From contig JAENYP010000009.1 in the NCBI GenBank assembly GCA_016841725.1, forward strand, positions 1-64,000: a stretch of DNA of 64,000 bases, given 5' to 3'. Positions 18,147-33,372 of this stretch are shown piece by piece. Every line of letters starts with the position of its first letter. The stretch's first letter is position 1. Below the pieces are notes generated by a model. That model was given only the letters and a program-made list of their open reading frames with translations, was not told where the DNA came from and made no database searches. Both the position numbers and the translations under genes were made by a program. This DNA is from Thermincola carboxydiphila. GTDB taxonomy: Bacteria; Bacillota; Thermincolia; Thermincolales; UBA2595.

Positions 18147-18180
18147 CGGCAGGCAAAAGTTATAAACGGGTCATACAGAA

Positions 18181-18212
18181 GACTAATACCCTTCCGGTAT
18201 TGGTCTTTTTTT
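18181..18212 (+). terminator. Terminator after the second ANTAR gene
   Basis: A 10-bp stem (18181-18190 with 18196-18205, one G-T pair), 5-nt loop and a 7-nt T-run. Confidence 0.85.
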
Positions 18213-18620: not shown

Positions 18621-19865
18621 ATGTTTTACGGAAACCTGAAAAAGTTTCTTAATGAATACCTAAATGCCCACTTCAGAAAAAACCTCAGAGAACACCTCAG
18701 GGATTACTTCAGAAAACACCTGAAAAGTAAAAGGGTCAGGTTAGCCGTAAGTGCTGCGGGTTTTTTTATAATCACTTTCTTTGGTGGACTTGAACTGACG
18801 GCTCAACCGGCAGTTTGTTCAATGTGCCACACGATGAATCCAGAATACTATACCTGGCAGCGGTCCTCACACTCCGGGACCGGGTGCGCCGGATGTCATG
18901 TCTCACCCGGCCCTGCGGGTTTGCTGAAAAGTTGTCAGAGCCGCGTCCGGAACCTGTACCTGACGTTTACAGGCGCATATGTCTCACCAATTGTGAAGCT
19001 GAGCCCAATTCCTGACAGGGCATGTGAACGATGCCACAAATCAGCCTCAGAAGACAGGGAGGGCCGCATCCTGGCGGCCCATGATGTGCATAAAACCATG
19101 GGGGTCAGCTGCATAAAATGCCATTCCGGAATTGCCCATGGCAGAATAGCCGAACGGGGTATTACCTTTCCTAGTGATTACCAAAAGTGGGACAGTGTAC
19201 TGGCTGATTCCCTGATGAGTGATAAACAGTATACCACCCCGGACATGGAGGCCTGTTTTCGCTGCCACCGGCTGCGCAAGGGACCTTTGGAGTGCCAGGC
19301 CTGCCATCGCTCTGTTAAGCCGGAAACCCATCTTAAGGGTGAATTTAATAATGGGGGTCATGGGAAAACAGCTGCTGCTGACCTGGCGTATTGTGACAGG
19401 TGCCACAGGTATATGAGTTCAGAGAAGACCATGGAAACCGAACAGGAGAAAAAATACCTTGAGTACCTGAAACAGGGTGAAACCAGCCGGCAAAGCAATA
19501 TGGTGATACCTTACTCCAGGACAAACACCTTCTGCAGGGACTGCCATGCCAAAAGGCCGCCAAGTCACAGCAAAAAAGAAAACATCAGGACTCATGGAAC
19601 AAGGGCAGAGGCAAACCAAAACAGGTGTATGGCATGCCATGACAACCAGTATCTCCCCGGAGCACCGGGGGAGCAGGGCGGACAGGGGACTGCTGTGACG
19701 GATGTGTTCTGTGCCCGGTGTCACCCGAGCTCCCACCGCTATTCCCTGCAGTGGCAGAATGGCTATCACCCGACAGACCTGCCGGCAAAACCCAGAATAA
19801 CCACATCCTGCTACACCTGCCATTCAGAAAAAATATGCGGCAGGTGCCATGGCAGTTTAACATAA
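18621..19865 (+). CDS. Dodecaheme c-type cytochrome with NapC/NirT-like N-terminus
   Basis: A 414-residue membrane-anchored cytochrome. A positively charged amphipathic stretch (1-40) is followed by one transmembrane segment (about 41-58) and then CSMCHTM and CAGCH, the layout of NapC/NirT quinol-oxidising cytochromes. Counting CxxCH motifs gives twelve (first at Cys66, last CGRCH just before the C-terminus). It probably takes electrons from menaquinol and passes them to the external cytochromes encoded downstream. The ribosome site (AAAGGCTG) is weak. It is the first gene of the electron-transfer island and is followed closely by the TPR and NHL genes. Confidence 0.9.
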   Translation: MFYGNLKKFLNEYLNAHFRKNLREHLRDYFRKHLKSKRVRLAVSAAGFFIITFFGGLELTAQPAVCSMCHTMNPEYYTWQRSSHSGTGCAGCHVSPGPAGLLKSCQSRVRNLYLTFTGAYVSPIVKLSPIPDRACERCHKSASEDREGRILAAHDVHKTMGVSCIKCHSGIAHGRIAERGITFPSDYQKWDSVLADSLMSDKQYTTPDMEACFRCHRLRKGPLECQACHRSVKPETHLKGEFNNGGHGKTAAADLAYCDRCHRYMSSEKTMETEQEKKYLEYLKQGETSRQSNMVIPYSRTNTFCRDCHAKRPPSHSKKENIRTHGTRAEANQNRCMACHDNQYLPGAPGEQGGQGTAVTDVFCARCHPSSHRYSLQWQNGYHPTDLPAKPRITTSCYTCHSEKICGRCHGSLT

Positions 19866-19893
19866 ACATCATTTTTATCAAGGAGGGGATAAA

Positions 19894-20568
19894 ATGTCGG
19901 TTACAAATCCCAGGTTAGAATTGAAGAGTGTTGTGGAAAAAAGTAAAAATGACAGCTTTACCCTGCTCCAGGCAGTGGCCCTTATTCTGCTTACAGTTAT
20001 CATAAGCTTTTCAGGGTGGTATGCAGCAGGCAGGTATTTTTTCTGGAAGGACCTGGATGTGAAAAGGGTTGAGGCCCAGCTAGAGTTTCTCAAAAAAAGG
20101 GTTGAAGCAGAGCCCGGGAACCTGGAGAACAGGGTTTCCCTGGCATATACGTATTTCCTGATGGGTGACAACGACCAGGCTGTAAACGAACTGAATCAGG
20201 TACTGGCTATCGACCAGAAGTATTCGGCTGCTTATTACAACCTCGGACTGGTCTATTTTGACGAGGGCAGGAAGGATGATGCCCTGGAAATGTTTCAGAA
20301 GACGGTGGAATTGTCTCCCCGGGATCACAAGGGGCATCTCCAGAAGGGCATTGTTTACCGGGATATGAAGATGTATAAAGAAGCAGTGGAGTCCATGGAG
20401 ACAGCCAATAAAATTCTGCCGGGCAATGCAAATGTCATTTATGAGATTGGCAGGGTGGCAGAGGAACAGGGCAATTTTGAAACAGCTGCTGAAATATACA
20501 AAGAGGCCTTAAGCTATGACCCGTTATATAAGGATGCAGTTGGGGCACTGAAGCGTGTTGAGAAATAA
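19894..20568 (+). CDS. Membrane-anchored TPR protein
   Basis: A 224-residue protein with one N-terminal transmembrane segment (about 25-47) followed by a coiled stretch and four to five tetratricopeptide repeats outside the membrane (from about residue 65, e.g. AAYYNLGLVYFDEGRKDDAL). It resembles TPR proteins that assist cytochrome c maturation (CcmH/NrfG-like), though no CcmH motif is present. AAGGAGGGG precedes the ATG. It lies between the dodecaheme cytochrome and the NHL protein in one operon. It may be an assembly factor for the multiheme proteins (inference). Confidence 0.85.
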   Translation: MSVTNPRLELKSVVEKSKNDSFTLLQAVALILLTVIISFSGWYAAGRYFFWKDLDVKRVEAQLEFLKKRVEAEPGNLENRVSLAYTYFLMGDNDQAVNELNQVLAIDQKYSAAYYNLGLVYFDEGRKDDALEMFQKTVELSPRDHKGHLQKGIVYRDMKMYKEAVESMETANKILPGNANVIYEIGRVAEEQGNFETAAEIYKEALSYDPLYKDAVGALKRVEK

Positions 20569-20593
20569 CGATAGCAGCGAGGGGGCGGTTAAA

Positions 20594-21592
20594 GTGGGAG
20601 ATGAAATAAAAGATGGGAAGACAGTAAAGAAAAGGCATGTCTACAATACCATGCTGATCATTTTTATCGGAATTTCGGTTGCTTTTGGTTACATGTTCTA
20701 TTCCCAGACCGAGATTATGGCTATTCCGGCTATGGTTGACCCTAACGGGCCTCCCAAGTTCAACCGGATGATTTATGGCGGTTTTGACAAGGAGGCTCTG
20801 GATAAGCCCATGGATGTATCGGTAATCGGCCAGTTTATTTATGTTACTGATACCAATAATCAAAGAGTCCAGGTATTTGACCTGGGAGGTTCGCCTGTAT
20901 TCAAGTTTGGCGAACAGGGGGAAAATCCGGGTCAGTTTGAATTTCCTTATGGAATTGACGGGGACAGCCAGGGGAATGTCTATGTGGCTGATCTTTATAA
21001 TGGCTGTGTTTCGGTCCATGATGCCAAAGGTAAATTTATCAGGTATTTTGCCGAAAAGGACCCCGGAGAAAAAATCATTGACACTCCGGGAGGGCTGCGG
21101 ATAATTGACAACAAGGTTTATGTCACTGATATCAACCAGAGCAAAGTACTCATTTTTGACCTGGAGGGCAAAAAACTTCAGGAAATCGGAAAAATGGGCC
21201 AGAATCCCGGGGAGTTACGCGCCCCTAATGCTGTTACTGCTGACGGGGACGGCAATATATATGTTGTGGATTCCGGGAACCAGAGGGTCCAGGTGTTTGA
21301 CAGTGCCGGGAAGTTCCTGAGAATTATTAACGGCTCAACTGATGGGAGAGGCCCTTCTGTTTTTGTAAACCCCCGCGGGATAGGCGTAGATTCCAAGGGA
21401 ACGGTTTATGTGCTTAGCAACCTTACTCATTACCTTTACGGTTTCGATAAGGAAGGGAACCAGGAGTTCGTCACTGCCGGTTATGGCAGCGCTCCCGACC
21501 GGTTTGTCCTGCCCAATGGACTTTATATAACTGAAAATGACGAGGTTTATGTAACTGATACGGGTAACCAGAGGGTAGCGGTTTATCAGTGA
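20594..21592 (+). CDS. Membrane-anchored NHL-repeat beta-propeller protein
   Basis: A 332-residue protein with an N-terminal transmembrane segment (about residues 22-42) and then a six-bladed NHL propeller. Each blade shows the pattern G.I.VD..GN.YV.D..N.RVQVFD (for example DTNNQRVQVFDLGG and DSGNQRVQVFDSAG). The start is GTG at 20594 with GAGGGGGCGG upstream; a more upstream TTG would overlap the TPR gene. NHL proteins are recurrent partners of extracellular multiheme cytochromes in metal-reducing bacteria, where they are thought to aid secretion or filament assembly. That role here is inference from neighbourhood. Confidence 0.88.
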   Translation: MGDEIKDGKTVKKRHVYNTMLIIFIGISVAFGYMFYSQTEIMAIPAMVDPNGPPKFNRMIYGGFDKEALDKPMDVSVIGQFIYVTDTNNQRVQVFDLGGSPVFKFGEQGENPGQFEFPYGIDGDSQGNVYVADLYNGCVSVHDAKGKFIRYFAEKDPGEKIIDTPGGLRIIDNKVYVTDINQSKVLIFDLEGKKLQEIGKMGQNPGELRAPNAVTADGDGNIYVVDSGNQRVQVFDSAGKFLRIINGSTDGRGPSVFVNPRGIGVDSKGTVYVLSNLTHYLYGFDKEGNQEFVTAGYGSAPDRFVLPNGLYITENDEVYVTDTGNQRVAVYQ

Positions 21593-21704
21593 ATGAGATA
21601 CCGATAGTAGCCTCCGGACAGGAAAACCCACAGGGGAGGAGGTGCTGTACGGCCTTGTGGCTCTTGCCTGGAGGATAACTAATAAAAGAGAGGAGAAGGT
21701 AATA

Positions 21705-23366
21705 ATGCGAAGGATTTCTATATTATTTGTGACAGTGCTATTTATCCTGGCACTGCCGGCTATGGCTTTGGCGGCTTACACTGATGCCAATACCACAGCA
21801 CCAACGACACCATATGCCCAGTCCTTTACGGCCCCGCTGACTGATGGGGATACTTCGGACAACTATCAGGGCAATGCCAACCGTACCGGTGGCGATACCA
21901 ACAACGTGGATATTCAGGATACGACTTCTGACATTGCAAATCCAGATGTAAAAAACATAATTAAATCCAAGGACATGATGATGAATGACTTTACCGGACC
22001 CCGGACCCAGAGGACACACGGTGAGTACCAGAACAATACCAACTCGTGTGCCAGCTGCCACCAGACCCACACCGGCGCTGCCAAGGACCTGTTATTCAAA
22101 GGCAGCAGTTCTGCCAATGGTGTGTACAACACATGTACCGCCTGTCATGACGGCACCCTGGGCTTCTACAATGTATTTTCGCCCTCTACCGCCGGTACCT
22201 TTGGAGGAACTGAAGGAGGTAATGCCTCTGTCCACCTGGCAACCGGAATGGCCAATATCTACATGGCACCAGGTGCAGACGTTCAGGGCGGTAACCAGAT
22301 ATGGAATGATGAGTTTGACTGTGCTGCCTGCCACGCTCCCCACGGTTCCTACAGTGACAGGCTGCTCCACTACAGCCCTGCCGGAATGGCCAATGTTTCC
22401 ACTGCAGACGGCGGGAATAAACTGATTGGCCTTACTGTAACTGATACCCTGCTGGCAGCAGATGCCGCTTCCCCTGAGCATGTTCTTTACAAGACCACTG
22501 CAGGCGTTGCCGGTATTGACCCTGCCAAAGAGGATGCTGCTACTGAAGTAGTTGTCGTGATGAAAAAGGTTGCAGACACATCTGGCACTCCAGTCACTTA
22601 CAGCTATGAAATGGATACCACCCCGTGGGTTGCCGGTTATGAGCATGCCATGGGAGACAACTATAATGTGCTGCAAATGCTGTATTACACCAGGTTCTAT
22701 GATGCTACAACAGCAGCTGATATTACCACTGATGTTGATGTCATTTATGGTCTTGCCTATGCCAAGGGTGATATCGCCGGTATCGGCTCAGCTGACATTG
22801 CCCGGGCCTATGTTGTTGACCTCGGTGACACAGAGGTTATCGATGGTCAAACTGTTGACATGGAACAGATTCAAATCGGAGACTTTGGCGGTGTGAAAAT
22901 TACCCAGATTAATACAGACATTTATGATGAAAAGGATCATGGCAAGGCTATCAGCAAGTACTGCGGCGCCTGCCACAGTCTGTACATGACCCATTCCAAG
23001 GACGCTGACGGTGACGGTGTATTCCGCCACAGCACTGATACAGACAGGTTTAACTGCCTCAAGTGCCACTTTGCCCACGGTACTGATGTAACAGTAATGA
23101 AGGATGCCAACGATGAGACAGTTGAGTCTCTGGTGGCCGGCGGTGCAGTTGAAGCAAATGCCACTGACTACATGGTTGACAAGAACGCGTCATCTGCCCT
23201 GAAGCGGTATACCAATATGTCGGTATGCTGGAAGTGCCACAGCGGAGTAGAAGGCAAGTCCAGTAAGCTGATGAATAACACCTATTACTGGGAGAACATT
23301 AACACCAATCCCAGGGGCGGGGCTGCCACCACTGAACATAACTGGACCAATAACGATTGGGAATAA
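21705..23366 (+). CDS. Secreted hexaheme c-type cytochrome
   Basis: A 553-residue exported protein. The signal peptide is clear (MRRISILFVTVLFILALPAM, cleavage after ALAA). Six CxxCH motifs are seen: CASCH (Cys115), CTACH (Cys144), CAACH, CGACH, CLKCH and CWKCH, several in doubled pairs with a following HG or PHG. The low number of hemes per length leaves long Gly/Thr-rich segments between them. The start at 21705 is chosen for the signal peptide and the AGGAGAAGG site; an earlier GTG would put extra residues before it. Six hemes in a secreted protein next to an NHL gene recalls filament-forming cytochromes such as OmcS, but sequence similarity cannot be judged here. Confidence 0.9.
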   Translation: MRRISILFVTVLFILALPAMALAAYTDANTTAPTTPYAQSFTAPLTDGDTSDNYQGNANRTGGDTNNVDIQDTTSDIANPDVKNIIKSKDMMMNDFTGPRTQRTHGEYQNNTNSCASCHQTHTGAAKDLLFKGSSSANGVYNTCTACHDGTLGFYNVFSPSTAGTFGGTEGGNASVHLATGMANIYMAPGADVQGGNQIWNDEFDCAACHAPHGSYSDRLLHYSPAGMANVSTADGGNKLIGLTVTDTLLAADAASPEHVLYKTTAGVAGIDPAKEDAATEVVVVMKKVADTSGTPVTYSYEMDTTPWVAGYEHAMGDNYNVLQMLYYTRFYDATTAADITTDVDVIYGLAYAKGDIAGIGSADIARAYVVDLGDTEVIDGQTVDMEQIQIGDFGGVKITQINTDIYDEKDHGKAISKYCGACHSLYMTHSKDADGDGVFRHSTDTDRFNCLKCHFAHGTDVTVMKDANDETVESLVAGGAVEANATDYMVDKNASSALKRYTNMSVCWKCHSGVEGKSSKLMNNTYYWENINTNPRGGAATTEHNWTNNDWE

Positions 23367-23419
23367 AAAAATAAGCTGACAAAAAATATGTCAGCTGTGA
23401 AGTGTGAATAACTTTTCCG

Positions 23420-23454
23420 GGCTGAGGTATTATGCCCCACATAATACCTCAGCC
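23420..23454 (+). terminator. Strong hairpin after the hexaheme cytochrome gene
   Basis: A perfect 15-bp stem (23420-23434 with 23440-23454) with a 5-nt loop. The following tail is only moderately T-rich, so it may act as a processing or stability element as well as a terminator. A second hairpin (AGCTGACA / TGTCAGCT) lies just upstream near 23374-23396. Confidence 0.65.
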
Positions 23455-23548
23455 ACCCTCTTATTAAAATATATCTCTAACTTTTAATTTTATTTTAAAT
23501 GGCGGTTCTTGTCAATGGATGACAAAGGGCAGGAAAAGGAGGATTGCC

Positions 23549-25501
23549 GTGAAGCAGTGGAGGCATTTCAATCAAAAAATGACCATATGGGGAATTGTTT
23601 TTGCCTTCTGCCTGCTGGTAATTGCCCATCCTGCACCGGTATTTAAGAAGCTGCTGTATCTGGTTTCCCCTGATATCGTTTTGGCAGCTTTACCTCCGGT
23701 AATAACCATTACCTCTCCGGCTGACGGAACGGCGACCAATAATTCGGTTGTGGAGGTAACGGGTATTACCGGGCCCAGTGTTTCGGTGGCGGTTTATCTC
23801 AATGATTCCCTGCAGGGCAGTATCCTGTCAGATAATGCCGGAGACTGGAATATGTCCCTGGGCCTGCTGCCTGAGGGTATTCATACTGTTTTTGCAGTGG
23901 CTGCCAGCAGCGCAGGGAACAGCAGCACCTCAAACCCGGTGACCTTTGAGGTGGATACTACACCTCCTGAACTAAAAATCACCGGTCCGGCAGACGGAGG
24001 CTATACCAACCGCCCGGTTGTCGAGGGGCAGACCGATCCTGACATAACGGTTGCGGTCCACATGTATGGGGGGGGCAGCGGTACAGTGATGTCAGATGAG
24101 GGGGGGCAGTGGTTTTTCCTTGACGGAAGCCTTGAGGAGGGTAGCTATAGCGCCTATGCTGTGGCTACCGACAGGGCAGGCAACAGCACCACATCAGAGA
24201 CGGTCTCATTTATCCTGGACATGAGCCGTCCCGTGGTCATTCCCGATATATATCCGGCTGAGGATATGACCAGGGTTTCCCCGGATGTGGTGACAAGGGT
24301 CTATATTATAGATAACTCACCGCTGGACCCGGTGAACCTGAAATCAGCCCTGGTGCTATCCGAAAACAACGGGGCTGTCTGGTCAGGTACTGCTGATACT
24401 GTTTATGAAAATATATATGGCAGTATAACTGGCAGTGTGGCTGGGACCGCATACAGCGCCGTATACACTACCGTATACGGAGACCCCTATTATGAGTTCA
24501 GCTTTAAGCCGGATGCTCCCCTAAAACCCGGAGTAAAGTATTCGGCGTCAGTTAACACTCTCTTGTCAGATGCAGCAGGCAACTATATATACCCAAGGAC
24601 ATGGTCCTTCACAACTGAGGGAGCAGGGACGGGGGAAAACCCGCACGGCAATTACCTGAGCAATGTCGATGTCTGTGCTAACTGCCATACTCCCCACAGG
24701 GCCGGGGCGGCGCGGCTTGTTGAACCACGAGATACCCAATATACAGATATTGATGACTATTGTAATGCATGTCATGACGGTACAGCAGCGCCGATTCCCT
24801 ACAACTGGCAGAGCATGTACAGGCATGATTTCCAGGTAAGTATCACAGGGGTTGCGGGAATCAGTTCCTGTACTTCATGTCATACCCCGCATGTGAACTG
24901 GACTGAGGAAAACCCTAATTTGCTGCAGGACTACTATTACTTTGACCATAATGACCCGACAAACCCATTCTTCCCAGACAGCAGTGAACAGGAGATGTGT
25001 GAATTGTGCCATCCGGGTACTATTGTGGAAGACCCAAGGGTTCAGTATATAAGATATACCTACGAGAAGTGGCACACCTCCACAGGCGCTCCTTCAGATT
25101 ACAGCCTGTGCCTGCGCTGTCATGACGGGAGTAATGCCTCCAATATAGCCTCATATTACAGCGGGCCGTCCCGGCATTCCCTTCAGGCTGCAGACGGCAG
25201 TTACCTGGATGGAGGACTGCCCTGTTCCGACTGCCATAATACACATGGGTCTGAAAACCTTAAACTGCTTAAGGAACAGCTAGGACATAACCAGGCGCAG
25301 CCGTTCCGGTCAGAAAACCTCATTTGGGATGCTGCCACTGAGCGCAGGTTCTGCACCACGTGCCATAATAATACAACCGAATTGTATGGGATAACTGCCG
25401 GCTTTGTCTATGCAATTCCCGGTCATGAAGACACCAGCACAGAACCGTGCAGCAGCTGTCACGGCGGTACGCCTGCAGCTGCCGCCCATGCGCCGCGATA
25501 G
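23549..25501 (+). CDS. Octaheme cytochrome with N-terminal Ig-like domains
   Basis: A 650-residue surface protein. It has an N-terminal hydrophobic anchor or uncleaved signal (about 15-50), then two bacterial Ig-like repeats beginning ITSPADG and ITGPADG (about 50-145 and 145-235), then a Big_5/SbsA-like domain (about 240-365) ending SFTTEG, then a heme region with eight CxxCH motifs: CANCH, CNACH, CTSCH, CELCH, CLRCH, CSDCH, CTTCH, CSSCH. The start is GTG at 23549 with AAAGGAGG upstream. The Ig region probably spans the cell wall and presents the heme domain outside. The downstream M23 peptidase gene is 24 nt away. Confidence 0.88.
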   Translation: MKQWRHFNQKMTIWGIVFAFCLLVIAHPAPVFKKLLYLVSPDIVLAALPPVITITSPADGTATNNSVVEVTGITGPSVSVAVYLNDSLQGSILSDNAGDWNMSLGLLPEGIHTVFAVAASSAGNSSTSNPVTFEVDTTPPELKITGPADGGYTNRPVVEGQTDPDITVAVHMYGGGSGTVMSDEGGQWFFLDGSLEEGSYSAYAVATDRAGNSTTSETVSFILDMSRPVVIPDIYPAEDMTRVSPDVVTRVYIIDNSPLDPVNLKSALVLSENNGAVWSGTADTVYENIYGSITGSVAGTAYSAVYTTVYGDPYYEFSFKPDAPLKPGVKYSASVNTLLSDAAGNYIYPRTWSFTTEGAGTGENPHGNYLSNVDVCANCHTPHRAGAARLVEPRDTQYTDIDDYCNACHDGTAAPIPYNWQSMYRHDFQVSITGVAGISSCTSCHTPHVNWTEENPNLLQDYYYFDHNDPTNPFFPDSSEQEMCELCHPGTIVEDPRVQYIRYTYEKWHTSTGAPSDYSLCLRCHDGSNASNIASYYSGPSRHSLQAADGSYLDGGLPCSDCHNTHGSENLKLLKEQLGHNQAQPFRSENLIWDAATERRFCTTCHNNTTELYGITAGFVYAIPGHEDTSTEPCSSCHGGTPAAAAHAPR

Positions 25502-25525
25502 TTTAAGAGTGGGGGGTGTGAGAAG

Positions 25526-26272
25526 ATGGGGATAGGGTGGAGGATGGTGACAGCATTGACTGCCGCCATCGTAGTCACCGCAGTCTGCCTGTTTCCGGCA
25601 GTACAGCCGGAATTTACAGGGCAAACCATTGGTAATAGGAGAGAACAAACGGCGGTTAGATTCGAGCAGCCGGACCGCAATGCGGTTTTACCTGATTTAG
25701 GCCAAAGGGAGGAACAAGAGCTGACAGTTCCTGAAAATCCCCCCCTGAAGACAATGGCAGAGTCCGGGGAAAGGCAGTTTACCATTGAAGAACAGTTAGC
25801 CAGGGTCCGCTCCGCGAGGCAGGAAATATCGCGGGACCAGGGGCCGGGCAGCAGGGTAATGAAGTCCTGGCCTGTTCCCGCAGGTGATTACAGGATGACC
25901 GGGTACTTTAATGAGAAAAGGAAGGACGGGGTCCATAAAGGAATTGATATTGCAGTTCCTTTAGGCACTCCTGTACTGGCTGTTTTTCCGGGCAAGGCGC
26001 TGCGAGGTTTTGCCGGTGATAAGACAAGCTTGGGAAGGTATGTCTATATAGAACATTCCAATGAAATAACAACCTATTATGGGCACCTCAGTGACTGGGC
26101 GTTACCGGCAGAAGGGATGCAGGTTTCCGCGGGGACCGTTATTGGCTGGTCCGGAAACACAGGCAACAGTACCGGACCGCACCTTCACTTTGAAATCCGG
26201 AAGGAAGCGGACAGGTATGTCAATCCTCTGGAAACATTATCTTATTCGGATGTGCTCTCACAAGGGGACTGA
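25526..26272 (+). CDS. M23-family metallopeptidase (LytM-like), membrane anchored
   Basis: A 248-residue protein with an N-terminal transmembrane segment (about 6-25), a hydrophilic linker, and a C-terminal peptidase M23 domain (about 135-240). The zinc ligands are visible as HKGID and HLHFEI, with GHLS and GNTGNSTGPH around them. M23 enzymes cut peptide cross-links in peptidoglycan. It lies between two giant cytochrome genes, so it may open the wall locally for their export or assembly (inference). The GGGGGGTG ribosome site supports the start. Confidence 0.9.
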   Translation: MGIGWRMVTALTAAIVVTAVCLFPAVQPEFTGQTIGNRREQTAVRFEQPDRNAVLPDLGQREEQELTVPENPPLKTMAESGERQFTIEEQLARVRSARQEISRDQGPGSRVMKSWPVPAGDYRMTGYFNEKRKDGVHKGIDIAVPLGTPVLAVFPGKALRGFAGDKTSLGRYVYIEHSNEITTYYGHLSDWALPAEGMQVSAGTVIGWSGNTGNSTGPHLHFEIRKEADRYVNPLETLSYSDVLSQGD

Positions 26273-26303
26273 TGCCTCCATAACCAAATTCAGGCATTTT
26301 TTT
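26272..26303 (+). terminator. Terminator after the M23 peptidase gene
   Basis: A 6-bp stem ATGCCT/AGGCAT (26272-26277 with 26292-26297) with a 14-nt loop and a T-run to 26303. The remaining 207 nt up to the next gene are partly GC-rich (around 26395-26435) with no feature I can name. Confidence 0.6.
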
Positions 26304-26510
26304 CTATGACAATCAATAATATTATGAGTAGTAACATTAATATTAAGAGTTATAACATTTCAGCTGCTATCCTTGAGTTCAGCCCTGCTTAATTCCCGTG
26401 TAGGAGGGGGAAGTCCGGGCGGCGGCTGGCTGGGATAAAAAACTTTTGGAAGGGAGGGTGTTTTTTGACTTCTGAGTTGCGCAGGCGAACCAGAATGAGG
26501 AGGGTAGAAT

Positions 26511-29500
26511 ATGAATGATGTCAAGGAAAAGGGGGAGGTGTCCAAGACACACAGGGCAGGCTATCTGAAGTCTGCGGCCATTATTTTGCTGGTACTGGCT
26601 GCCCTGACCGGGGGATTTTACGGTATCAAACAGGTAAATGCTGTGGAAAATCAGGTCACGGCGCTGTCAGTAAATCCAAATCCCATTAAACTGGGTTCTC
26701 CTGCATATGTCCAGTATACCCTGGGCCAGAATGCCGCAGTATACCTGAATGTATATAACGAGAGTGGAGAGCTTGTCAGGGAACTGCTGAAAGGGGTAAC
26801 CAAGTCTGCCGGGACTTATGTTCAGGCATGGGATGGCAAAGACCAGAATGGGGCGCCAGCCCCGGACGGAAACTACAGGTTTACGGCAGAAGCCAGGGAT
26901 AACACAGAAGCAGTAATCGGATTCATGGAATTAACTGCTTTAGCTGCCAGCCAGCCTTTAATAAGCGCTGTAAGTGTTACCCCTGATCCCTTTGACCCGA
27001 CTGCAGGGCAGCAGGCTGATATTACCTACACTATATCAGCAGACGCCAAGGTGACGGTAATAATCCTTAATGGGTATGTCCCGGTAAAAACCCTTACTGC
27101 CGGAGAAACTAAAACAGCCGGGACTTATACCATTAGCTGGGACGGCACAAATGATGCCGGGCAGACAGGGGGAGACGCTGTTTACACTTACCAGATTGAT
27201 GCTGTCAATCCTTTGGTATCGGACTTTAAGAGTACTTCTAAGGGGTACACGACACTGGAAGCGGCTGTACCGGGAATTACTGACTTCTCCGCCTATCCTG
27301 ACCCCCTGAAGATTGCCTCAACCAGTATGACCATCAGGTATTCTCTCAGTGAGAAAGCTAAAGTGACCCTGAAGATTGTTAACAGTACCGGAACGGCTGT
27401 GAGGACACTTCTGAACAATACAGCTAAAAACGCCGGATACAACAGTGTTATCTGGGATGGAAAAACGGATACCGGCGCATACGTCCCTGAGGGTAATTAT
27501 TCTGTGGTCATAAGTGCTGTTGACAATTATAACAAACCCTCGGATGTGCAGTCGATACCCTTCAAAGCCGGATATCAGCCGGCCATAAGCGGTGTACAAA
27601 TTACTCCCGATCCCTACAATCCCGGGGATGCCGAGAACCCCAATGCCACTATTAGCTACAACATATCCTGCGAATCCCTGGTCACCGTAAAAATCCTAAA
27701 TGGCTATACTGTTGTCCGGACGGTTTACGATTCTGAACTGCAGGCAGCCGGAACCAGCACGGTCCTGTGGAACGGCAGGGATGATGCCGGGAATACCGTG
27801 GGGGACGGTTCATACAGTTGCCAGATATCTGCTGTCAGTCCTACTGTAAGCACTTTTTCTACTACCTTAAAGGAAAACTTTACCGTGGAAAAAGGGGCAC
27901 CTGAGGTCACTGACCTAATCCTTACCCCTAACCCCTTTAAGCTGGGCAGTGGCAGTCTGTATATCAGGTATAACCTGTCTGAGCCTGCTGCGGTAAGTAT
28001 TGACGTGATGAAGGACGGTGAACCTGTCAGAAACCTGGCCTCGGGAGTAAGTAAGAATGCCGGGTACAACACAGGTGCCTGGGACGGTAAAGACGGTGAC
28101 GGTAATCTTGTCGGTGAAGGGGTTTACTCCATTAAGGTTACTGCCGTTGATACTGCGGGCAGGTCCGGTGAGGCTGCTGCTGATGTTACTGCAGGTTACC
28201 AGGCGGCTATAAGCAATGTCAGTGATACTCCTGACCCCTTTGTTCCGGCGTCAGACGGCAGTGCCAGTGCCACCATTGGTTTTGACCTGTCAGCCGGGGC
28301 CAGTGTAAAGGTAATTATCGCAAGAGGTTCTCTGCCGGTGAAGACCATTTCCATAGGAGTGGTCACCGCAGGTTCCCGGAGTGTTACCTGGAACGGTCTT
28401 GATGACAGCGGTAAAGTTGTATCTGACGGAAGTTATACATATACCATTGAGGCTTCCAGTCCGACAGTACCCACATTTATCAGCCGTTCCCAGGGGACCA
28501 TTACCGTGGAATCAGGGCCGCCCACACTGACCGGCCTCACTGTGAGTCCTTATGTGGTGAAGATAGGTTCACCCGCTTATTTCCGGTACACCCTGAGTGA
28601 GCCGGCAGATGTTACAGCACAGATACTTAACATAGACGGGGATACGGTCCGCGATTTTGCGGCTGAGAGTAAAACAGCCGGAGGCTATTATTCAATCAGC
28701 TGGGATACCAAGAATAATGATGGTGCTCCGGTGCCTTCAGGAGACTATATCTTTGAAATCTCTGCAGTTGATGATTCGGAACTGAGCGGCTCGGGACAGA
28801 TGGCTTTCCAGGCAGGGGCAGTTCCGGTGTTTACGACTGTTTATGCAGAGCCGCAGGTGTTCAATGCAGCTGACGGAGAACAGACAACCCTTTACTATTC
28901 CGTATCTGAACCCTCATATGTGACGGTTAAGGTGGCCAATTCCACCGGGACTGTTATCAAGACTCTATCCACTTATCAAGAAGCAGGCCCAGGGCTGAAC
29001 TCAATAGCCTGGGACGGAGCCAATAACACGGGACAGGTAACAGACGGAAATTACACCTACACTATTGATGCAAGTTCCGTTATCGGCAATTTCAAGGCTG
29101 TCCAGGCATCAGGGACGGTGCAGGTGAGTACAGGTTCGGGTACACTGCCGCCGCCGGCAAGCTGTACTGACTGCCACACCGGTTATCCCACAAGCCACCC
29201 TGTAAACAATTGTGCCGGGTGCCATGGCAATAATGAACCTATTCAGGATTGTGCTTCCTGTCATACTAACTGGGGTGCCCACAGCAATGGTTCATTCCTC
29301 TCTACCTATAAGTGTGAATACTGTCATAATAACACCTACAGCTATAAGATACCTTCCCACCCGGTGGATATAGACGGGATTCATGATACGGACCTAGCCG
29401 CTGACTGCCAGAAATGTCACCAGACATCCCTCAGTGTAGAGCATCCGCTGCACACGGATGAGGCAGGCACTGAGTATGACTGCAGGACGTGCCATGCCAG

Positions 29501-30182
29501 CACCGTGTCTGAAGTAGTCTATGCCATTGATAACAGCCTGAAAAACTGTGATGCCTGCCATACCCAGTCAGGTCATCAGGCACAGCATACCACAACTGCT
29601 CTTGACAGTAACTGTACCACGTGCCACATAAACAGCCTTACAGATGAACACCTGAATAACCCCTCGACTCAGACAGACCCCACTACCGGGCAGATTAAAC
29701 CATGGAACTGCAATACATGTCATGCCAGCACCCAGGCCACGGTTGTGGGAGCCATAGATACAGCCAACAGGCAGTGTGCCGCCTGCCACCAGGCAGGGCA
29801 CAATATGAACTTTGCAGAACCCGTCCCTGAAAATATACCCAGATATGCCGGGTATACCTGGACAGCTCCACAGAATGCTTTCCTATGGAATGGTGAGTCA
29901 TGGATGCCTGATGAGTTTCTGGTGGGAGGCAAGGTTATTATCTCCAGCCGCCGCATTGATGTTACCGGAGACCAGGTATGGGCATTCTACCGGGATGAAA
30001 TGGCAGCACTGGGATGGACTCTTACATCTGATGCGCCGCCTGCAGGTGCCAATTTCTTTAATGTAACCTTCACCGGTACTAATAATCACAAAGCAGTGAT
30101 CTGGTTCTATGGCGGCTTGACTCATAATGCTTCTGATGCGGTCCTGCCTGCCGGTTACCGGATTGAGATAATCTACAAATAA
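26511..30182 (+). CDS. Giant decaheme cytochrome with eight FlgD-like Ig domains
   Basis: A 1223-residue protein. It has an N-terminal anchor (about 20-40), then eight FlgD-like Ig domains of about 95 residues (about 49-870), each with a WDG or WNG turn and a following DG.Y strand. Then a decaheme region (about 880-1105) with CTDCH, CAGCH, CASCH, CEYCH, CQKCH, CRTCH, CDACH, CTTCH, CNTCH and CAACH, and finally a C-terminal domain of about 120 residues that is shared with the next cytochrome (motifs VIISSRRIDVT, VWAFYRDEM, LGW). The Ig stack could reach 25 nm or more and place the hemes outside the wall (inference). GAGGAGGG precedes the ATG. Confidence 0.9.
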   Translation: MNDVKEKGEVSKTHRAGYLKSAAIILLVLAALTGGFYGIKQVNAVENQVTALSVNPNPIKLGSPAYVQYTLGQNAAVYLNVYNESGELVRELLKGVTKSAGTYVQAWDGKDQNGAPAPDGNYRFTAEARDNTEAVIGFMELTALAASQPLISAVSVTPDPFDPTAGQQADITYTISADAKVTVIILNGYVPVKTLTAGETKTAGTYTISWDGTNDAGQTGGDAVYTYQIDAVNPLVSDFKSTSKGYTTLEAAVPGITDFSAYPDPLKIASTSMTIRYSLSEKAKVTLKIVNSTGTAVRTLLNNTAKNAGYNSVIWDGKTDTGAYVPEGNYSVVISAVDNYNKPSDVQSIPFKAGYQPAISGVQITPDPYNPGDAENPNATISYNISCESLVTVKILNGYTVVRTVYDSELQAAGTSTVLWNGRDDAGNTVGDGSYSCQISAVSPTVSTFSTTLKENFTVEKGAPEVTDLILTPNPFKLGSGSLYIRYNLSEPAAVSIDVMKDGEPVRNLASGVSKNAGYNTGAWDGKDGDGNLVGEGVYSIKVTAVDTAGRSGEAAADVTAGYQAAISNVSDTPDPFVPASDGSASATIGFDLSAGASVKVIIARGSLPVKTISIGVVTAGSRSVTWNGLDDSGKVVSDGSYTYTIEASSPTVPTFISRSQGTITVESGPPTLTGLTVSPYVVKIGSPAYFRYTLSEPADVTAQILNIDGDTVRDFAAESKTAGGYYSISWDTKNNDGAPVPSGDYIFEISAVDDSELSGSGQMAFQAGAVPVFTTVYAEPQVFNAADGEQTTLYYSVSEPSYVTVKVANSTGTVIKTLSTYQEAGPGLNSIAWDGANNTGQVTDGNYTYTIDASSVIGNFKAVQASGTVQVSTGSGTLPPPASCTDCHTGYPTSHPVNNCAGCHGNNEPIQDCASCHTNWGAHSNGSFLSTYKCEYCHNNTYSYKIPSHPVDIDGIHDTDLAADCQKCHQTSLSVEHPLHTDEAGTEYDCRTCHASTVSEVVYAIDNSLKNCDACHTQSGHQAQHTTTALDSNCTTCHINSLTDEHLNNPSTQTDPTTGQIKPWNCNTCHASTQATVVGAIDTANRQCAACHQAGHNMNFAEPVPENIPRYAGYTWTAPQNAFLWNGESWMPDEFLVGGKVIISSRRIDVTGDQVWAFYRDEMAALGWTLTSDAPPAGANFFNVTFTGTNNHKAVIWFYGGLTHNASDAVLPAGYRIEIIYK
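26655..29130 (+). repeat. Eight tandem FlgD-like Ig repeats of two alternating types
   Basis: In protein, odd repeats (1,3,5,7) start like SVNPNPIKLGS and end in VDN/VDT/VDD, and even repeats (2,4,6,8) start like VTPDPFDP, contain a V.IL.G..PVKT-type strand and mostly end in SP or SS. The unit is thus a two-domain super-repeat of about 190-200 residues repeated four times. DNA identity between copies is moderate, so the duplication is not recent. Confidence 0.75.
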
Positions 30183-30222
30183 GCTGCCTAATAAGTCATA
30201 ATAGGTAAGCCGTAATGGGGGG

Positions 30223-30245
30223 GAGCAGTTGCTGCTGCTCTTTCC
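30223..30245 (+). terminator. Hairpin after the decaheme gene
   Basis: GAGCAG (30223-30228) pairs with CTGCTC (30235-30240), 6-nt loop, followed by TTTCC. It is a weak terminator at best. Confidence 0.4.
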
Positions 30246-30312
30246 TCATTTAAAAAAACGATTTGGACTGGCCATTTTTAAAACAATTTTTAACTTGCGG
30301 AAGGGATTGTAG

Positions 30313-30435
30313 ATGGGGGCCTGTGGTATAGTCAGGGGTGATGCCGACGGCTGTTTTGTCCCCGATAAATTTGTTACCAGGGCTGAAGCGGCCGTAATGG
30401 TCAGGAGAATGCTGTCAAAGGCCGGATTTATGTAA
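30313..30435 (+). pseudogene. Relic of an S-layer homology (SLH) domain
   Basis: A 40-codon reading frame whose translation fits the C-terminal half of an SLH domain: GIVRGDADG, then FVPDKFVTRAEAAVMVRRML. The usual preceding helix is interrupted by a stop codon directly before the ATG (in-frame LRKGL then stop). SLH domains anchor proteins to the wall polymer. It is probably the 3' end of a decayed surface protein gene, perhaps once attached to the preceding or following cytochrome. No ribosome site of quality precedes it. Confidence 0.55.
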
Positions 30436-30466
30436 ACAGCCGGCCACAGAAGGGGAGGATACTATT

Positions 30467-32065
30467 ATGTATGTCAGTCATTGGAAAAAGGGTGGGGCGA
30501 AGCCGGGCATATTATTCCTTATCCTCTGTATCAGTATTTTGGGATTATTTGTTTTAACCAATTGCGCAAGTGCTGAAATGAGTAATTCACTGCAAAATGA
30601 AGGCTGTGTAACCTGCCACATTAATTATCCGGGTGTTCCGCTATACAGCACCAACTGGGATGTTAAACACAAATTTGATGTCTGTGATAACTGTCACACC
30701 AGTTATGTGGCCAATTGGATGTGGAACTGCCGCTATTGTCACCTGACGGCTTATAACGGGAATTCAGGCTTCAGGAGCTATTCGGGCCCACTGAGCGGAG
30801 GGCCTCCGGGGAGCGGGGAATTCATGAATGACCATAGCTGGACAGGTGTTGATGCGGATTTTGCCTATCACAATAACACTATGGGTGGTAAACATACATC
30901 GGCTTTCCCGGCTGCGGACTGCATAGACTGCCACCAAAGCAGCCTGACACTGGAACATGATGGCCGGGTCATTGGATTATCCGGTGTGGCAGAGGATTTT
31001 GAAGACGACTCTTTTGCAGTAGAGCTTGGAGGAGACTGGGCCAGGACAAATACTGTATATCATACCGGGACATATGGATATAAGAGTAAGACTATTACCC
31101 ATAACCAGTCATCAGTATTACAAATGACGGTAAATCTTACCGAAGAGGGCAGCAACTCTTTCTGGTACAAGGTCAGCAGTGAAGGTGGGTATGACTTCTT
31201 AAAGTTTTACATAGATGGTACTGAGAAGTTGAAGGAGTCAGGAATGGTCGACTGGAAACAGGCATCATATCCCCTTACTGCAGGTGCTCATACCCTGAAA
31301 TGGATTTACTCAAAGGATGGCAGTGTATCTTCATACCAGGACAGTGCGTATATTGATGATGTCATCATTGGCGGAGTTACCGGGTCAGCAGTCTCAAGCT
31401 ATCCGGTTGATTGCAACAGCTGCCATTTAAGTTCGGATGCAGCAGTGAAAAGTGCCATAACAAATCATAATACAGACTGTTCAGCCTGCCATTTACAGGC
31501 TGACCATGACTCCATTCATATTTCGGGTTTGAATGAAAGTTGTCTTTCCACATCATGCCATACTGGCTATCTCAATACAGACCACAGGGCCAGAAGCGTT
31601 GGCTGTGGGGTATGTCATAACAGCAGTGACCCTCAGGTTATTACTACCATTGAAAATAAAGACAAATACTGTGGCAGCTGTCATTTCGCTGCACACAATC
31701 TTTCTCTTGTTCCGGTAGTTGAAGAAATACCCCTTTATCCCGGTTTTGATTGGGGCAGTCCCATGTTTCTCAGCATTTGGCAGGGTGAGCCATGGACACC
31801 CGCCGACTTGGCCAGTGGAGGATATATCATCCTGTCAGACCATCGTAATATAACAGCAGATATGGTGTGGAATTTCTACAAGACCGAGATGGCTTCCCAG
31901 GGTTGGGTTCTTGGCTCTGCAGAACCGCTTCCCGGTGCGGCTGATTTTGAAGTAACTTTTTCCGGGATGGGGCGTAGCTGTGTTATTAAATTTAGCACCT
32001 CTGGAGAACATATCACAGGCATCTCATCCGATACTGAGTCCAGCATGGAAATAATTTATAACTAA
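30467..32065 (+). CDS. Nonaheme-type cytochrome with internal beta-sandwich domain
   Basis: A 532-residue exported protein with an N-terminal signal or anchor (about 12-40). Four CxxCH motifs (CVTCH, CDNCH, CRYCH, CIDCH) are followed by a beta-rich domain of about 125 residues (about 180-305, starting FEDDSFAVELGGDW and ending IDDVIIGG, like MAM/concanavalin-type domains). Then CNSCH, CSACH, an unusual CLSTSCH (CX4CH), CGVCH and CGSCH follow, and finally the C-terminal domain shared with the 1223-aa cytochrome (IILSDHRNITADMVWNFY). That makes eight CxxCH motifs and one CX4CH. AGGGGAGG precedes the ATG. Confidence 0.88.
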   Translation: MYVSHWKKGGAKPGILFLILCISILGLFVLTNCASAEMSNSLQNEGCVTCHINYPGVPLYSTNWDVKHKFDVCDNCHTSYVANWMWNCRYCHLTAYNGNSGFRSYSGPLSGGPPGSGEFMNDHSWTGVDADFAYHNNTMGGKHTSAFPAADCIDCHQSSLTLEHDGRVIGLSGVAEDFEDDSFAVELGGDWARTNTVYHTGTYGYKSKTITHNQSSVLQMTVNLTEEGSNSFWYKVSSEGGYDFLKFYIDGTEKLKESGMVDWKQASYPLTAGAHTLKWIYSKDGSVSSYQDSAYIDDVIIGGVTGSAVSSYPVDCNSCHLSSDAAVKSAITNHNTDCSACHLQADHDSIHISGLNESCLSTSCHTGYLNTDHRARSVGCGVCHNSSDPQVITTIENKDKYCGSCHFAAHNLSLVPVVEEIPLYPGFDWGSPMFLSIWQGEPWTPADLASGGYIILSDHRNITADMVWNFYKTEMASQGWVLGSAEPLPGAADFEVTFSGMGRSCVIKFSTSGEHITGISSDTESSMEIIYN

Positions 32066-32079
32066 AACGGAGGATAAAG

Positions 32080-32187
32080 ATGGAACTGGTCATAGTATTC
32101 GGAATGGCAGGGCTGCTTCTGGTTACCCTGGGTTTGTATCAATTGGCTTGTGTTTTTCGCTGGATATCGAAATACGGAGAAGATTGA
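32080..32187 (+). CDS. 35-aa single-span membrane protein
   Basis: A tiny gene 14 nt after the nonaheme gene, with a strong CGGAGG ribosome site. The product is one hydrophobic helix (about residues 3-26) followed by a charged tail (RWISKYGED). It is followed by a terminator, so it is the last gene of the cytochrome island. It may be a small subunit or assembly peptide of a membrane electron-transfer complex, but no family is recognised. Confidence 0.6.
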   Translation: MELVIVFGMAGLLLVTLGLYQLACVFRWISKYGED

Positions 32188-32204
32188 CAGGATGTTGTAA
32201 AATC

Positions 32205-32226
32205 GGGCCTTTGCGGGCCCTTTTTT
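32205..32226 (+). terminator. Terminator closing the cytochrome island
   Basis: GGGCC (32205-32209) pairs with GGCCC (32216-32220), followed by a 6-nt T-run. Confidence 0.75.
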
Positions 32227-32317
32227 CATTGGGGGCTTTTTTTTGGAGGATTTACTGCCGCTCTGGTGAAGGTAGAGTAAAAAAGATTAACAAGAGTATA
32301 AAAATCTTTGCAAATTT

Positions 32318-32347
32318 TGCAACCTGAATGCTATTTATGGTGTCTAA
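32318..32347 (+). promoter_or_regulatory. Putative ECF-type promoter before the sigma gene
   Basis: TGCAACC at 32318-32324 and GTCTAA at 32342-32347, spaced 18 nt after the TGCAAC hexamer, resemble the AAC-containing -35 and GTC-containing -10 of ECF sigma promoters. This suggests autoregulation of the following sigma gene. Confidence 0.4.
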
Positions 32348-32375
32348 TGGGTGATTGACAGGAGGGCCCACTGAT

Positions 32376-32930
32376 ATGCTGAATGAGACAGAGCTGATAC
32401 TGAGGCTGCTGGATGGAGAGGAATCCGCATCCCGGGAACTGGTTTTATATTTTGGTGACAGGCTGCTCCGGGCGGCTTATGGGATAACCGGTGACCTGCA
32501 GGCAGCCGAGGAAGTTGTTCAGGATACCTTTCTGAAAACATGCCGCAGGCTGAGTTCCTTCAAAGGAGATTCGTCACTGGAAACCTGGATGTTCCGAATA
32601 ATGATAAATACTGCAAGAAACAGGATGCGCAGCAGTTGGATAAGACGTGTTACAACTATTGACCAGGGGCAGGCCTCCTGGGTGCCTGCTCCTGAAGGGT
32701 ATAATCCGGAGCATGAATTACTGCAGCGTGAAAGGAGACAGGAGGTAATCCGGTGTCTCCGGGAACTGCCCCTAAAATACCGTGAGGTTATGGTGCTTTA
32801 CTACCTCGAGGACCTGAGTGTTGAGAAAATAAGCCAGGTCCTGGGACATCCTTCCGGGACGGTGAAGAGCCAATTGTCACGGGGCAGGGACAGGATGAAA
32901 CAGCTTTTGGAAATTCGGGAGGTTTACTGA
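32376..32930 (+). CDS. ECF-family RNA polymerase sigma factor
   Basis: A 184-residue sigma factor with sigma region 2 (about 10-80, with AEEVVQDTFLKTCRR) and region 4 (about 120-175, with LPLKYREVMVLYYLEDLS and GTVKSQLSRGR). The start at 32376 follows AGGAGGG; a TTG 21 nt upstream would place the site inside the gene. It overlaps no other gene and is followed by 1 nt and then the predicted membrane anti-sigma. The regulon probably includes this operon and possibly cytochrome genes (inference). Confidence 0.93.
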   Translation: MLNETELILRLLDGEESASRELVLYFGDRLLRAAYGITGDLQAAEEVVQDTFLKTCRRLSSFKGDSSLETWMFRIMINTARNRMRSSWIRRVTTIDQGQASWVPAPEGYNPEHELLQRERRQEVIRCLRELPLKYREVMVLYYLEDLSVEKISQVLGHPSGTVKSQLSRGRDRMKQLLEIREVY

Positions 32931-32931
32931 G

Positions 32932-33369
32932 ATGGTTGAAAAAATCGAAAGAAATAGACCGGGCAATAGTACCGGTAAATACTTGGATACTGATATGTGC
33001 ATAGATCCGGATAATGAGATCAGAAGGTATGTAAAGGAAGGCATGCAGGATGTAAACCTGCCGGAAGCCCGGAAGCGCATTCTCCAACAGGAAGTATTCA
33101 CAGAAACGGCCGGATGCCGGGATGGTATTGCTAGGCGTGTTTTGAGAAGGGTGCATGATTTTATGGAAACAACCTTTGAAATATCCCTGGCTCCTGTAGT
33201 GACAGCACTGGGAGTACTGGTGGTGGGAGCTGCCACTCTGAGTTACGGATACCTCGTTGTACCTTCCGAAACAAATATCAGGAACCCGGTTGGATATATT
33301 CAGCAGACATCAGTCAATCCCAATGGAAGTACCCACATTATATTTTTGCCTGTAGACAGGAGGGGTTGA
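32932..33369 (+). CDS. Single-span membrane protein, putative anti-sigma factor
   Basis: A 145-residue protein: about 85 cytoplasmic residues, one transmembrane segment (about 84-107), then a short external tail. Position directly after an ECF sigma gene and topology fit an anti-sigma factor. The HxxxCxxC zinc motif of ZAS-type anti-sigmas is missing, so the assignment rests on context only. GGGAGG from the end of the sigma gene serves as ribosome site. Confidence 0.6.
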   Translation: MVEKIERNRPGNSTGKYLDTDMCIDPDNEIRRYVKEGMQDVNLPEARKRILQQEVFTETAGCRDGIARRVLRRVHDFMETTFEISLAPVVTALGVLVVGAATLSYGYLVVPSETNIRNPVGYIQQTSVNPNGSTHIIFLPVDRRG

Positions 33370-33372
33370 GAT

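Follow-up and report, generated by a model that had tools for sequence, protein, structure and literature searches.

A multiheme cytochrome island of Thermincola carboxydiphila with an OmcS-family hexaheme protein as a candidate conduit through the Gram-positive wall

The Gram-positive cell wall, which electrons have to cross in extracellular electron transfer, is 20-80 nm thick. A gene island bearing on this passage is present in Thermincola carboxydiphila (assembly GCA_016841725.1), where it occupies positions 18621-32187 of contig JAENYP010000009.1 within an analyzed stretch of 64,000 nucleotides, hereafter the window. This 13.6-kb island encodes, on the plus strand only, multiheme cytochromes with 12, 6, 8, 10 and 9 heme motifs. 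The same numbers had been given in a preliminary description of the sequence and were reproduced by direct motif count, the ninth motif of the nonaheme protein being of the CX4CH type (CLSTSCH) beside eight CXXCH motifs. Such numbers of heme motifs within a single stretch of same-strand open reading frames (ORFs) are not due to chance. The ORFs were called mechanically, and start sites and membrane topology were judged by inspection. We read the island as an extracellular electron-transfer operon of a monoderm bacterium, whose hexaheme cytochrome would stack into a heme wire through the peptidoglycan, and assign to this reading as a whole a probability of roughly 0.55. The role of an extracellular conduit, for which the preliminary description had named the island as a candidate, is supported by the analysis and seems highly probable; for polymerisation of the hexaheme protein the chances appear about even.

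The hexaheme cytochrome and its relation to OmcS

The ORF of the hexaheme cytochrome (21642-23366, plus strand) opens with GTG 21642 and contains six CXXCH motifs. The protein likely starts at ATG 21705 rather than at GTG 21642, because a clean signal peptide begins there; the mature chain runs from approximately 21762, has no membrane anchor and is predicted to be secreted. An inverted repeat of eight pairs (23374-23396) directly follows the stop codon. It may serve in processing or attenuation, and the hexaheme protein would then be made in higher yield than the products of the downstream genes.

A phmmer search of the PDB with the single hexaheme sequence did not find OmcS, the hexaheme cytochrome that builds conducting filaments of Geobacter sulfurreducens (6EF8, 6NEF). 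Profiles of the hexaheme family detected it in hmmsearch with E = 4.8e-7 (12 sequences), 8.1e-7 (57 sequences) and 1.9e-10 (68 sequences, 6ef8 being the best entry), and OmcS was the best and only strong PDB match. The profile of a sister group typified by CwcA, a hexaheme cytochrome of Thermincola ferriacetica, matched OmcS at E = 4.2e-16, the alignment keeping heme motifs 1-5 in register, and its next match was OmcE (2.5e-4). The window-type and CwcA-type profiles matched each other with a probability of 100 and E = 3.4e-47. Since profile homology links the hexaheme protein to OmcS, the comparison is more than one of shared heme number, on which the OmcS likeness had been based in the preliminary description.

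The six CXXCH motifs and exactly six further histidines are invariant in all 68 hexaheme sequences; in the mature protein of the window the latter are His86, His103, His158, His194, His423 and His439. All 20 CwcA-type proteins compared show a corresponding six-plus-six arrangement without exception, and 98 of 98 hexahemes have the complete positional pattern of histidines and hemes, versus 20 of 228 other multiheme proteins of the same loci. OmcS has 12 axial histidines; heme 5 receives one of them from the adjacent subunit, and the other 11 are internal (PMC6584659). The invariant set of the family comprises the twelve ligands expected for six bis-His hemes, and OmcS likewise combines six hemes with six distal histidines. 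The alignment places the invariant histidine of the CxxCHxxH motif (His103; SCASCHQTH, codon at 22068-22070, plus strand) on residue 16 of mature OmcS. We take OmcS His16 to be the ligand donated between subunits, and His103 is proposed as the inter-subunit ligand of heme 5.

AlphaFold modelling of the hexaheme protein with 12 sequences gave a mean predicted local distance difference test score (pLDDT) of 44; with 68 sequences the mean was 67.7 and the predicted template modelling score 0.70. The latter model contains a confident beta-rich domain (mature residues ~200-390; 22359-22931, plus strand), which is inserted after heme motif 3 and before motif 4 and in which most blocks have pLDDT above 85. 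Motifs 3 and 4 are spaced by 167-319 in close relatives, as against about 50-170 in those that are compact or distant, and the domain is largely missing from proteins of OmcS and CwcA size. It matched no Pfam family.

Several observations weigh against a polymeric wire. The heme-1 region of the 68-sequence model is poor (pLDDT below 50), and a Foldseek search of the PDB with this partial model found nothing at E < 0.4; OmcS and OmcE are reported to be without much secondary structure (PMC9473688). The beta-rich domain, which has no counterpart in OmcS, might hinder stacking. In addition, MtrA (listed under 6r2q), a non-polymeric cytochrome that sits in a porin, also matches the CwcA-type profile, at 3e-6, so homology alone is no proof of polymerisation. 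Even in Geobacter, it is disputed what OmcS filaments do physiologically (PMC11077965), and pili-like filaments of Carboxydothermus ferrireducens were non-conductive (PMC7829351).

The TPR-NHL-hexaheme module in the host and in other genomes

Loci of other genomes were collected by hexaheme search alone, so the neighbouring genes count as an independent observation; related genomes among them are not independent of each other. The pair of an NHL gene and a hexaheme gene, described at first for the window, proved to be a common one: an NHL gene is located within two genes upstream of 71 of the 77 hexahemes in named genomes. A TPR gene lies within three genes upstream in 65 of them, a cytochrome with at least 10 motifs within four genes in 56, and another multiheme gene follows 61. 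The order 12-heme, TPR, NHL, hexaheme recurs in Thermincola, Desulfosporosinus, Dethiobacter and Bacillaceae, and its synteny extended by the octaheme was seen in dozens of named genomes. Most genes of the island recur in the same order elsewhere: the dodecaheme keeps its place in full-length clusters and an octaheme homologue comes after the hexaheme in most clusters, while further cluster content downstream of the hexaheme varies.

Hexaheme carriers include Thermincola, Desulfosporosinus, Dethiobacter, Carboxydothermus, Carboxydocella and a few Chloroflexi metagenome-assembled genomes (MAGs), as well as many Bacillus, Neobacillus and Mesobacillus. Of the 61 genomes in the GTDB genus of Neobacillus drentensis, 53 have the hexaheme at E <= 1e-20. 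Seven of eight inspected Neobacillus genomes have the order decaheme, dodecaheme, TPR, NHL, one to three hexahemes and a cytochrome with six, seven or eight hemes; the eighth cluster ends at a contig edge. Neobacillus, a genus of soil bacteria, is not known for extracellular electron transfer, and the open-access literature yielded nothing on Neobacillus together with multiheme cytochromes or on TPR and NHL proteins together with extracellular electron transfer. In some Neobacillus (L196, L197, L198), two or three compact hexahemes are found in tandem, similarly to omcS and omcT of Geobacter. Another variant is represented by 12-heme proteins of loci L156, L157, L160 and L163 (those of L157 and L163 being Carboxydothermus-like), in which the first six motif spacings are hexaheme-like and a six-heme unit is apparently fused to a second half.

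When sequence distances are compared as matrices, those of the 12-heme, TPR, NHL and hexaheme proteins are mutually correlated (Mantel r 0.75-0.94; reached in 0 of 2000 permutations). Part of this correlation is shared phylogeny. Paralogous modules within one genome separate alike for all four genes.

The host genome (G000) comprises 3.88 Mb in 40 contigs, the window being contig C29, and its relatives are Thermincola-labelled MAGs and HGW-Firmicutes-14. A module of TPR, NHL and a six- or seven-heme cytochrome occurs six times in the host: in the window, at C25:~451-456k (L049), on C9 (L173), at C25:~264-280k (L174), at C25:~288-296k (L175, CwcA type) and on C3 (L181). Eight of the ten stand-alone host NHL ORFs adjoin multiheme genes, the ninth stands beside ResB/CcsA-type genes in a cytochrome cluster, and ResB-type genes adjoin two of the six modules.

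In L175, genes for 10-, 12- and 17-heme proteins are followed by TPR, NHL and a hexaheme of 366 aa (L175:5092-6192). The decaheme sequence continues M-GIRD, the N-terminus reported for the purified membrane cytochrome ImdcA (PMC7911101). Based on this N-terminus and on a gene order that fits the numbering Tfer_0070-Tfer_0075, L175 is apparently the host copy of the published Thermincola ImdcA...CwcA cluster. With the published cluster located elsewhere in the genome, the window holds one of six modules that are paralogous to each other. The window hexaheme was also considered as the CwcA orthologue, and this assignment was rejected: the gene in the CwcA position is the one in L175, on another contig, and the window protein is its divergent paralogue, ~28-36% identical to it over local segments. 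It is larger than this CwcA copy (553 versus 366 aa) and carries the beta-domain insertion.

Further elements lie at three host loci outside the window. Directly downstream of the TPR-NHL-hexaheme module of L173, the segment 9749-18931 (C9:29749-38931) encodes a protein of 3060 aa that contains 42 CXXCH motifs; ResB- and CcsA-like genes and another NHL gene follow it. Proteins with 28 or more and with 14 heme motifs are encoded downstream of the CwcA-type hexaheme (L175:1-4842; C25:284001-288842). A CRISPR-like array of twelve repeat copies at 66-nt spacing is located at L204:13071-13964 (host C19).

Pfam analysis confirmed the TPR, NHL and M23 genes named in the preliminary description. In the window, the TPR protein (19894-20568, plus strand; 224 aa) matches Pfam TPR families, with a weak match of the CcmH/CycH type, and the NHL beta-propeller (20555-21592, plus strand; 345 aa, GTG start, assigned by Pfam) is encoded by a gene overlapping that of the TPR protein; each has one N-terminal membrane helix. 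The former is proposed as an apocytochrome chaperone or assembly factor and the latter as an assembly or docking platform. As more constant companions of the hexaheme than any terminal cytochrome, the two would be the best candidates for factors of its maturation, export or assembly. A tentative suggestion, somewhat on the doubtful side, is that TPR and NHL proteins together form machinery devoted to building OmcS-family wires of monoderms, and that such wires are made cassette-wise across Bacillota including nearly all Neobacillus.

The membrane, wall and flanking parts of the island

The same-strand genes of the island are separated by short gaps or overlap, and terminator-like hairpins (consensus matches only) are located outside both ends, at 18177-18209 and 32205-32220. 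The region 18621-32187 may therefore well form a single transcription unit. An Rfam scan of the whole window gave no match.

The first gene encodes the dodecaheme cytochrome (18621-19865, plus strand; 414 aa, 12 CXXCH). It had been described as NapC-like, and this holds: the protein matches PF03264 at 49.1 bits (cut-off 24.1), has the membrane-anchored N-terminal multiheme NapC/NirT domain characteristic of the NapC/NirT/NrfH type, and in the PDB its nearest solved structure is NrfH (2j7a, E = 1.4e-5). It is proposed to be a menaquinol dehydrogenase. NapC-type proteins and multiheme wires can run in both directions, and many carriers of the module are Bacillaceae, which are generally grown as aerobes. 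These points could speak for an inward flow, in which solids, Fe(II) or partner cells would supply electrons to the quinone pool. Thermodynamics, in contrast, favours outward flow from menaquinol to Fe(III) or electrodes; furthermore, metals and electrodes are reduced by cultured Thermincola species, and an outward direction was proposed for the homologous ImdcA/CwcA chain (PMC7911101). Inward flow is considered very improbable, and electrons would move outward through the system.

The similarity to NrfH, the donor of a soluble-nitrite reductase, bears on a different arrangement as well. The cluster might serve a surface respiratory reductase for a soluble acceptor, with the large cytochromes being catalytic and the hexaheme acting merely as their electron donor; the variability of the genes downstream of the hexaheme, as though the terminal proteins were interchangeable, would fit this arrangement. 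However, the large cytochromes of the window match just generic C7, c3 and MtrC/F-like domains plus immunoglobulin-like (Ig-like) domains in Pfam, and none of them matches a known catalytic reductase family; a search of NCBIfam with the nonaheme likewise gave no match. This arrangement appears improbable.

Three large cytochromes follow the hexaheme. The octaheme (23519-25501, plus strand; 660 aa, 8 CXXCH by motif count) is membrane-anchored and carries Ig-like domains according to Pfam. The decaheme (26511-30182, plus strand; 1223 aa) combines a membrane helix at its N-terminus with eight Ig domains of the FlgD type (FlgD_ig in eight stretches, 275 bits in Pfam); its architecture makes it a candidate wall-spanning stalk with a heme head. 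The nonaheme (30467-32065, plus strand; 532 aa) is predicted to be secreted, and its C-terminal ~200 aa are a duplicate of the C-terminal ~200 aa of the decaheme (29478-30077 versus 31409-31966; 37% identity). The part of these duplicates that was searched, past the last hemes, had no convincing Pfam match. The decaheme and nonaheme genes are separated by a gap with a 40-codon ORF (30313-30435), which matches the latter half of the S-layer homology domain PF00395 (E = 5.7e-6) and is probably a remnant of an S-layer anchor; the congener locus L050 is without this gap.

The Ig-carrying proteins, to which the preliminary description had ascribed wall spanning, may cross the wall. In principle, the octa- and decaheme, with their membrane anchors and Ig stalks, are long enough for it. 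In a further explanation, the hexaheme is a monomer or short oligomer located in the wall or diffusing through it, and relays electrons of the dodecaheme to these wall-spanning cytochromes in place of any filament. It would agree with the weak profile similarity of non-polymeric MtrA-type proteins and with the partial AlphaFold model and Foldseek search, which gave no structural sign of a polymer. On the other hand, the nearest solved relative, OmcS, polymerises; in many Bacillaceae clusters a single large cytochrome accompanies the hexahemes, and tandems of two or three hexahemes occur in some, as would be expected of a bulk structural component. Moreover, expressed CwcA was insoluble, which was interpreted by its authors as a sign of polymerisation (PMC7911101). 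On balance, the monomeric relay seems rather unlikely.

The M23 peptidase (25526-26272, plus strand; 248 aa; PF01551, 97.7 bits) has an N-terminal membrane helix and intact metal-site motifs HKGID and HLHFE, and probably opens the peptidoglycan locally for the conduit. Its gene occupies the same position in L050, L051 and L052; beside the hexaheme, an M23 gene is found only in Thermincola-type clusters and in none of the Bacillaceae clusters. The last gene before the hairpin at 32205-32220 encodes the 35-aa single-helix membrane peptide (32080-32187, plus strand), already noticed in the preliminary description. Its reading frame is kept at the same place in the congeneric genome G001 (MELVIVLGAAGLLVLALGLCQLAFALHWTSKYGED).

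Beyond this hairpin, an extracytoplasmic function (ECF) sigma factor (32355-32930) and a probable anti-sigma protein (32932-33369) are encoded on the plus strand. The pair adjoins the cluster in both congeners and is a possible regulator of it. A 763-aa TPR protein that follows the pair (32355-35664 together) is also kept in the congener, and the three together may take part in control of a regulon.

Proposed pathway and related systems

In the preferred reading, the NapC-type dodecaheme would take electrons from menaquinol in the membrane and hand them to the secreted OmcS-family hexaheme, which the membrane-anchored TPR and NHL proteins would help to mature and position. The hexahemes would stack head to tail, each lending His103 to heme 5 of its neighbour, and would thus form a heme wire across the peptidoglycan, in which the M23 peptidase would make room. 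The Ig-carrying octa-, deca- and nonaheme proteins would serve as wall-spanning or surface partners passing electrons to minerals or other acceptors.

An OmcS-like hexaheme polymer through the Gram-positive wall was proposed in 2021 for CwcA of T. ferriacetica, modelled at 18% identity to OmcS (PMC7911101; the proposal is restated in PMC12203936). The ImdcA (Tfer_0070)...CwcA (Tfer_0075) cluster of Thermincola ferriacetica/potens resembles the window in that a secreted hexaheme comes after a multiheme membrane cytochrome of the NapC type (PMC7911101), and the window module has the order of this pathway, namely, NapC-type multiheme, TPR, NHL and secreted hexaheme. The window adds the genes for the octaheme with Ig domains, the M23 peptidase, the decaheme with FlgD-type Ig domains and the nonaheme after the hexaheme. 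With OmcS, the hexaheme shares six CXXCH motifs, six distal histidines at corresponding places and profile homology. Unlike the OmcS system, that of the window has no outer membrane or porin and carries the insertion between hemes 3 and 4; its hexaheme stands in an NHL/TPR context, and its filament is a predicted one.

In the iron-reduction clusters of Dethiobacter alkaliphilus, genes for NHL- and TPR-repeat proteins likewise accompany those of multiheme cytochromes, and the repeat proteins were already suggested to aid the assembly of multiprotein complexes (PMC10376724). However, that paper gives neither a relation to hexahemes or OmcS, neither term occurring in it, nor a fixed TPR-NHL-hexaheme order. 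In the diderm Geoalkalibacter ferrihydriticus, two NHL proteins adjoin an OmcE homologue and a putative quinol-oxidising cytochrome; this locus differs in its tetraheme OmcE type and in the presence of MtoA homologues (PMC12016550). A NapC-like 14-heme protein with TPR and NHL is encoded in the Carboxydothermus-like genome G056 (L065), and in Carboxydothermus islandicus a NapC-like/TPR/NHL trio precedes an 11-heme protein (L120). In Carboxydothermus the six-heme unit sits inside an 11-12-heme protein, unlike the hexaheme of the window.

Two other known types of conduit were considered and rejected. A porin-cytochrome conduit of the Mtr/Pcc type does not fit, since no porin is encoded among the ORFs of 18621-33369, and an OmcZ-type filament, with eight hemes and an OzpA-type protease, does not agree with six hemes and no such protease beside the hexaheme. 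Compared with the open-access literature, the fixed TPR-NHL-hexaheme module, its multiplication in one genome and its spread through Neobacillus are apparently new, as are the invariant ligand set of the whole family and the beta-domain variant of the window.

The one published wall-crossing model that was found is based on a single hexaheme, CwcA. The deep family, the invariant ligands and the fixed gene order make a model of the CwcA type testable in many species, and two likely assembly factors, the TPR and NHL proteins, can now be named. Candidates are available in cultivable aerobic spore-formers, which are easier to handle than thermophilic anaerobes. These results suggest that OmcS-type cytochromes are far more widespread in monoderms than the few described metal reducers would indicate; since the same gene set is present in many Bacillota, including most Neobacillus, cytochrome wires through thick Gram-positive walls may be common.

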